Shown: in pieces, positions 58,128 to 59,326 of the stretch
Layout of the letters: the number at the start of each line of letters is the position of its first letter
How positions within the stretch are numbered: the stretch's first letter is position 1
DNA from: Aeropyrum camini SY1 = JCM 12091
GTDB taxonomy: Archaea; Thermoproteota; Thermoprotei_A; Sulfolobales; Acidilobaceae
Reading direction: 5' to 3'
NCBI RefSeq assembly: GCF_000591035.1
Contig: NC_022521.1
Span: forward strand, 1-64,000
Length of the DNA stretch: 64,000 nucleotides
Program-made: the position numbers and the translations under genes
Notes under the pieces: model-generated
Databases searched by the model: none
What the model was told of the DNA's origin: nothing
Seen by the model: only the letters and a program-made list of their open reading frames with translations

Positions 58128-58134
58128 TTATTAA
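58128..58134 (+). promoter_or_regulatory. TATA-like box ahead of the structured ccmC leader
   Basis: TTATTAA with expected start near 58157, exactly at the 5' end of the foldable RNA. Confidence 0.45.
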
Positions 58135-58156
58135 GGATTTCCGGGTTTATAGGAGG

Positions 58157-58257
58157 CTGGGGAGGCGCGCTGTGGATGCCCCTACCCTGGGAGCCGATTC
58201 CCCGGGTCTGGGCCTCCGGGGTATGGTGACGTGGTCCTCTCCCGAAGCGCCTCCCCC
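58157..58257 (+). ncRNA. Candidate structured RNA or leader upstream of ccmC
   Basis: Four helices can be read by eye: GGGGAGGCGC (58159-58168) with GCGCCTCCCC (58247-58256), perfect over 10 bases; ATGCCCC (58176-58182) with GGGGTAT (58218-58224); ACCC (58184-58187) with GGGT (58204-58207); GGGA (58189-58192) with TCCC (58199-58202) around a 6-base loop. The outer helix begins where transcription from the TATA-like box at 58128 would start. It does not carry the conserved words of 5S, SRP or RNase P RNA. The ccmC GTG starts 32 bases after it. Confidence 0.5.
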
Positions 58258-58288
58258 CGGATATGATAGTGGGGAGTGGTGTTGAGAC

Positions 58289-59326
58289 GTGGCTATGCCA
58301 GGGCGACTCATCACGTTGCTCTTAGCTGTCGTCATTGTTGCTGACCTGGCCACGGCGGTGTATGCGGTGTTTGAAGGCCCGTTTCCAGCCGTTGTACCGC
58401 TCGGCTCACCCCTGGCCTATAAGAACATTTACATCCACCCGCCTACGGCAATCACTACCTACATAATATTTGGTGTAGCCAGCCTGGCAGGCGCTCTCTA
58501 CCTCTGGAGGAGGGACAGAAGGTTCTCCCGACTCGCCTTCTACGCGGTGGCACTAGGAGTTGTCTACGGTTTCACAACTCTAGCTACAGGCATAGCGTGG
58601 GCTAGCGAGTCGTGGGGCGAACCATGGAGCTGGGATCCTAAGCAGACGGCCGTTCTACTCATGGTGCTAGCCTACCTAGGCTACTTCCCGCTCAGGAGCA
58701 GTATAGGGGATCCGGAGAGGAGAGATCTCGTCTCGAGCGTCTATCTCCTAGCATCGTTGAGTATGATACTGCTAAGCATACTTGCAAACCGGTTGATAGA
58801 AAGCCTGCATCCCACGGGTGAAGCTATAAGAGATTTCTCAGCCGACTTCCAGGCAGGCTGGACGTTTAGCATTCGGGTGGTAATGGCTATTGCCACCGGG
58901 TTATCACTAATAGCTTTAGCCTACACGCGTGTTAACATCCCCAGGATCCTGCTACTCGGTGTCGGTGTTACGGCAGGCCTAGCCCTGGCGGCCTCAGCTT
59001 TAATGGCGTTGCCGCTTCTCGAGGGAGAGTATTATAGGGTTGTTAATGCCGATGTAGGCGACGATGGGTTGATATACTCGATAACCGTCGTCACGAGTGG
59101 CAGTAGCGAGGAGACGATAGTGTTCCCAACTCCGGTAGAATCCCCTATAAAGCCCGCTAAGACAGCGGACGACAGACCCACTATCACAGGCCATCTAGTC
59201 AGAATAGGTGAAGACGGTGGCCTCCAGGTCCTTCCACACTGGAGCACACCATTAAACCTAGCACTATACACCCTAGCCCTACTAGTGGGAGTAGCCTTAA
59301 CTATAACACTTGGTAGACGAGAGTAG
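58289..59326 (+). CDS. ccmC: CcmC-like haem export protein of cytochrome c maturation
   Basis: The 345-residue product has about eight membrane segments with the haem-handling features of CcmC: YIHPP with H50, the tryptophan-rich loop SWGEPWSWDPKQT (109-120) and ESLHPTG with H174; these two His flank the WWD-type loop as axial haem ligands. The order and spacing match CcmC rather than the much longer CcmF. An extra C-terminal outside domain of about 75 residues precedes a last helix. It would pass haem to CcmE. GTG start; an ATG two codons later is possible. Confidence 0.8.
   Translation: MAMPGRLITLLLAVVIVADLATAVYAVFEGPFPAVVPLGSPLAYKNIYIHPPTAITTYIIFGVASLAGALYLWRRDRRFSRLAFYAVALGVVYGFTTLATGIAWASESWGEPWSWDPKQTAVLLMVLAYLGYFPLRSSIGDPERRDLVSSVYLLASLSMILLSILANRLIESLHPTGEAIRDFSADFQAGWTFSIRVVMAIATGLSLIALAYTRVNIPRILLLGVGVTAGLALAASALMALPLLEGEYYRVVNADVGDDGLIYSITVVTSGSSEETIVFPTPVESPIKPAKTADDRPTITGHLVRIGEDGGLQVLPHWSTPLNLALYTLALLVGVALTITLGRRE

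Follow-up and report, generated by a model that had tools for sequence, protein, structure and literature searches.

The DNA at 58128–58288 of the window raises the question of which RNA it encodes, and of whether that RNA belongs to the adjacent ccmC-like gene or is a gene in its own right. The window is the stretch analysed here, positions 1–64000 of a genome totalling 1,595,994 bases. A preliminary description had seen a strongly structured RNA at this site and had offered two roles for it, a regulator of haem handling or an independent small RNA of about 100 bases; covariation supports the second. The locus is probably the separate gene of a dual-guide box C/D sRNA that would methylate G713 of 16S rRNA and hold helix 23 open.

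Two elements are present as first described: a perfect 10-bp outer helix, in which GGGGAGGCGC (58159–58168) pairs with GCGCCUCCCC (58247–58256), and a TTATTAA at 58128–58134, ~25 nt 5′ of that helix. The GC content is 0.70 at 58150–58249, compared with 0.42–0.61 for most stretches nearby, and raised GC is a frequent sign of structured RNA in hyperthermophiles. The unusual strength attributed to the fold did not hold up. The stretch 58128–58288 gives z = −0.53, with 56 of 200 shuffles equally or more stable, and the shorter 58152–58260 gives z = −1.37 (15 of 200). Because these single-sequence energies are unexceptional, the observation of an RNA is weak without comparison, and single-sequence folding was dropped as evidence. 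Within 58152–58262, there is just one further perfect inverted repeat of 7 bases, joining 58215–58221 with 58255–58261, so that the outer helix would face competition.

A DNA search recovered the RNA core in four of the five other genomes of the genus, and a covariance model built from three of these genomes (R1) matched the fifth as well as 14 further genomes of the family. A second model (R2), whose seed left out both the window sequence and its nearest relative, detects the window copy at E = 1.9e-12. Of the order's 214 genomes, 75 contain a homologue found with R2, as do one more genome of the class and one elsewhere in the phylum; the weak matches L028–L033, L090, L091, L093 and L096 were regarded as doubtful or as chance. 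When named genomes were scanned with a pattern, 17 records matched: 14 archaeal ones (Acidilobaceae, Pyrodictiaceae, other Desulfurococcales and one Thermoproteota record) and three bacterial ones that are probably chance matches.

Covariation had been named as the check on the proposed RNA, and the RNA passes it. When 12 sequences are aligned with MAFFT, 81% of cells are paired in the terminal stem and a spacer hairpin, with two-sided changes in 10 of 14 pairs. None of 500 shuffles reached the covariation score, and every measure falls when the partner strand is slid by 1–3 columns. The inner helix and two-part apical hairpin drawn in the preliminary description fared less well, as comparison supports the terminal stem and one 6-bp hairpin. 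An initial comparative structure from R1, containing a GCCCC-UACCCU-GGGAGC hairpin, failed outside Aeropyrum and was dropped in R2. Covariation of box C position 5 with box D position 2, in the kink-turn, was inconsistent across the family and is not claimed. The predicted parts of the locus are as follows.

58128–58134, + strand: TATA-like TTATTAA, ~25 nt 5′ of the terminal stem; judged from its sequence, a probable promoter element of the RNA gene.
58158–58258, + strand: RNA gene, box C/D-type sRNA (R2 covariance model, E = 1.9e-12); approximate ends, placed from the stem.
58159–58168, + strand: terminal stem 5′ strand, GGGGAGGCGC; perfect complement of 58247–58256, covarying in relatives.
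58170–58176, + strand: box C position, degenerate CUGUGGA, aligned to RUGANGA of relatives.
58178–58193, + strand: guide 1 (D′ guide), GCCCCUACCCUGGGAG; pairs with 16S CUCCCGGGGUAGGGGC, E. coli 677–692.
58194–58197, + strand: box D′, CCGA, from position and alignment.
58200–58221, + strand: D′-C′ spacer hairpin, CCCCGG (58200–58205) with CCGGGG (58216–58221); two-sided changes in relatives.
58223–58229, + strand: box C′, AUGGUGA, one base off RUGANGA.
58231–58241, + strand: guide 2 (D guide), GUGGUCCUCUC; pairs with 16S 709–719, the fifth base before box D lying opposite G713.
58242–58245, + strand: box D, CCGA, exactly 11 nt after the guide 2 start.
58247–58256, + strand: terminal stem 3′ strand, GCGCCUCCCC; complement of 58159–58168, covarying.
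58289–59326, + strand: ccmC-like gene (Cytochrom_C_asm, PF01578; Pfam E = 5.6e-23); a neighbour, not part of the RNA's function.

The relatives are plain box C/D sRNAs with the order GUGAUGA-guide-UUGA-hairpin-AUGAUGA-guide-CUGA; the copy in genome G170, for example, reads GUGAUGA, guide UGCCCCUACACUUA, UUGA, hairpin, AUGAUGA, guide AGUGGUCCUUCG, CUGA. In the window copy, box D′ (CCGA, from 58194), box C′ (AUGGUGA, from 58223) and box D (CCGA, from 58242) stand in the same order, and the 10-bp terminal stem, which covaries in relatives, joins boxes C and D. Box C is CUGUGGA in the window, compared with RUGANGA in most relatives outside Aeropyrum (consensus RUGAUGA), and box C′ is mostly RUGANGA across the 88 copies. 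Three of the six Aeropyrum copies have AA in place of GA in box D. The C′-D spacing of the window copy is the canonical 12 nt, whereas its C-D′ spacing is 17 nt, outside the range of 10–12 nt. CCGA or CUGA lies exactly 11 nt past the guide 2 start in 58 of the 88 copies, and the +5 register on G713 is thereby kept. Membership of the family in the box C/D class is well supported, and its variant features are the D′-C′ spacer hairpin, a long GC-rich terminal stem, the degenerate Aeropyrum boxes and a 17-nt D′ guide.

Two classes can be distinguished by guide 1. Class A carries GCCCCUAC and usually has the hairpin spacer, class B carries UACCCCGGGA and usually has a short spacer, and the two are found together in 16 genomes. 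Guide 1 of Aeropyrum, GCCCCUACCCUGGGAG, spans the target stretches of both classes. In most class A relatives, the duplex adjoining box C stops short of box D′.

Both guides are complementary to the 16S rRNA of their own genome, which carries CUCCCGGGGUAGGGGC and GGGAGGACCAC within 43 nt, at helix 23. In E. coli numbering, transferred by way of ATTAGATACCC as an anchor at position 787, these sites are 677–692 and 709–719. Guide 1 forms 16–17 bp with its site, including one or two G-U pairs, and guide 2 forms 11 bp. Both runs, in the same order and neighbourhood, were matched by 2 of 1000 dinucleotide shuffles. The guide 1 pairing by itself is not significant, 10 of 100 shuffles being as good, and it was therefore not used as stand-alone evidence. 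Under the box D+5 rule for the target nucleotide (PMC7994747), box D points to G713 and box D′ would point to C681, and the complementarity of guide 2 runs across its +5 position. Furthermore, the class B guide 1 matches an overlapping 16S site, 678–687, and the model had been seeded without a class B guide.

Guide 2 and its target also change together in one clade. In G040 and G050, presumably Ignicoccus-like genomes, 16S A718 is replaced by G, and each of that family's five sRNAs carries GCGGUCC where GUGGUCC is found elsewhere. This joint change at 718, seen in the 16S of two genomes, may be a single evolutionary event; it makes an interaction with rRNA credible without experiments. For guide 1, the changed sequence in G092, UACCCCGGAAG, has no matching change in the 16S of that genome, which is standard. 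The 16S gene was sought in further relatives and was absent or not found in most draft genomes.

Two observations concern the 16S gene itself. The decamer GGGUAGGGGC occurs twice in it, once in helix 23 and once, ~340 bases further upstream, near helix 12, so that guide 1 could in principle bind both. Many class A guide 1 decamers also fit the helix 12 site, better there in 29 of 85, while Aeropyrum guide 1 pairs clearly better with helix 23 (15 versus 10–11 Watson–Crick pairs). The gene (C1:1165168–1166817, minus strand; L035) has 1650 bases compared with the 1478 positions of the model, and contains an AT-rich insertion that is probably an rRNA intron.

In the proposed mechanism, the RNA would be transcribed from its own gene, its long terminal stem would close boxes C and D, and the hairpin would close the internal C′/D′ pair. 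The C′/D′ K-loop is without a stem I (PMC5389607); the spacer hairpin would provide one and could bring the K-loop closer to a full kink-turn. The single-stranded guides would pair with pre-16S rRNA at helix 23, where the D′ guide would take the 5′ strand (677–692) and the D guide the segment at and just 3′ of the other strand (709–719). Their joint effect would be an open helix 23 whose apex remains as a loop. L7Ae, Nop5 and fibrillarin would then methylate the 2′-OH of G713 from box D, the C′-D half, with its canonical spacing, being the one that should direct this modification. The long D′ duplex would mainly keep its helix 23 strand open until release. A guide spacing of 10–12 nt is said to be essential for methylation (PMC3608112), and a long duplex with 17 nt between C and D′ may therefore favour binding over methylation.

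The rival that survives best takes this further and seems unlikely: an RNA derived from a box C/D sRNA, with boxes decaying in Aeropyrum, would no longer methylate at all, and its two antisense elements would serve as an rRNA chaperone that keeps helix 23 open during small-subunit assembly. The 17-nt C-D′ spacing, the degenerate boxes and the 16–17 bp D′ duplex of Aeropyrum would fit such a role, as would the duplex that misses box D′ in most class A relatives and the simultaneous binding of strands on both sides of helix 23. However, throughout the order the spacing of the C′-D half stays at the canonical 12 nt and its +5 register stays on G713. U14 and snR30 act on rRNA in a chaperone-like manner in eukaryotes. 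It is a tentative and on balance doubtful conjecture that hyperthermophilic Crenarchaeota have a counterpart, a 16S helix 23 chaperone on a C/D scaffold with a hairpin-stabilised internal kink-turn, kept mainly for 30S assembly rather than for methylation.

The degenerate boxes C and D of several Aeropyrum copies could also be read as decay without function, these copies being relics of a box C/D sRNA. This is very unlikely, as the stems and both guides are retained or compensated in all six Aeropyrum genomes.

That the RNA regulates haem handling as a structured leader, or as a riboswitch, of the ccmC message is more improbable still. The RNA does lie close to ccmC, 36 nt upstream in the window genome and 39 nt in G004. 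These two closest Aeropyrum genomes are, however, the only ones with ccmC downstream among all the genomes examined, the conserved words are antisense to 16S rRNA, and the relatives show the box C/D order; the haem-handling role proposed in the preliminary description is therefore set aside. Downstream genes in other members of the genus are DUF973-like or encode L38e, and those in other genera and families look MoaB-like or TatD-like from their translations. These genes are unrelated to one another and to ccmC, which argues for a stand-alone RNA gene. Within 58259–58288, GATATGATA lies ~26 nt 5′ of the ccmC GTG start, and it is not evident in G004; in the window genome this suggests that ccmC may have a promoter of its own and a leaderless message.

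An H/ACA guide RNA, in which the two conserved strands would be the sides of a pseudouridylation pocket, can hardly be right: a hairpin whose two antisense strands lie opposite one another recalls one, but here the 5′ element matches the 16S site that lies upstream and the 3′ element the one that lies downstream, the reverse of an H/ACA pocket, no conserved ACA lies 3′ of the stem, and C, D′, C′ and D boxes are clear in relatives. Searches of the whole window against Rfam gave no match at gathering thresholds and nothing relevant at relaxed ones (E up to 5), so that the RNA is not a recognisable 5S, SRP or RNase P RNA, as had been stated from the outset. A tRNA/tmRNA search gave nothing matching. 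The H/ACA, riboswitch and known-ncRNA readings were thus all rejected in favour of the dual-guide box C/D sRNA.

Archaeal dual-guide box C/D sRNAs have the same order of C, guide, D′, C′, guide and D within a terminal stem (PMC7994747, PMC4644070), and likewise direct two guides to nearby rRNA sites, with guide 2 in +5 register. They are 50–70 nt long, whereas the Aeropyrum RNA is ~100 nt and differs further in its D′-C′ hairpin, its degenerate boxes and its C-D′ spacing of 17 nt rather than 10–12 nt. A chaperone action on rRNA has been proposed for dual-guide sRNAs (PMC4644070). For sR15 and sR17 of Nanoarchaeum equitans, a role as 16S folding chaperones has been proposed, in which the two guides of each RNA sequester the strands around a single helix, as they would here (PMC4644070); their targets are helices 28 and 30, with sites that lie far apart, whereas the Aeropyrum RNA would target helix 23 within a 43-nt stretch. 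Methanopyrus kandleri sR41 is listed with 16S targets G660 and G687, in that paper's own alignment numbering (PMC4644070, Table 2). Its two guides are 27 nt apart, and its 16S region may match that of the Aeropyrum RNA, with numbering schemes that differ and a host lineage distant from Aeropyrum, the comparison being one of listed target positions. The eukaryotic H/ACA snoRNA snR30/U17 resembles the Aeropyrum RNA in its manner of working alone, with two short antisense elements that bind two small-subunit rRNA segments, the rRNA between these segments staying as a hairpin (PMC7601244). Compensatory guide and target changes across species are seen in snR30 (PMC7601244), as in the Aeropyrum RNA family; snR30 is nevertheless an H/ACA RNA directed at expansion segment 6 and essential for cleavage, whereas the Aeropyrum RNA is of box C/D type.

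No description of an Aeropyrum C/D sRNA was found in the literature searched. The locus adds an sRNA family that is unannotated, matches nothing in Rfam and has a specific 16S target open to testing. In this order, a D′-C′ spacer hairpin can occur in box C/D sRNAs, and their boxes may be so degenerate that annotation by consensus could overlook them. Should the long D′ duplex prove non-methylating, it would offer a clean test case for an rRNA-chaperone role of archaeal C/D sRNAs.

Several minor matches are of interest in themselves. L091 and L096 (in G167 and G168) are near-identical, GC-rich and structured (AGGGGGCCUGGGGGAUCCCCCUAGCC...), are without guide 2, and may represent some other conserved RNA. 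A weak model match, L149 (G067:C195:12700–12990), has the form AUGAGGA ... CGGA-CCCCGG..CCGGGG-GUGAAGU-AGCCUUUAAGUA-CUGA and reads as another box C/D sRNA, with a D′-C′ spacer hairpin and different guides; hairpin spacers may therefore be commoner in this group. L061, L058 and L063 (in G013, G023 and G007) form a third type of paralogue, characterised by GCCCCUGCCC as guide 1 and by a short spacer, which sits alongside the main copy in some Acidilobaceae genomes.
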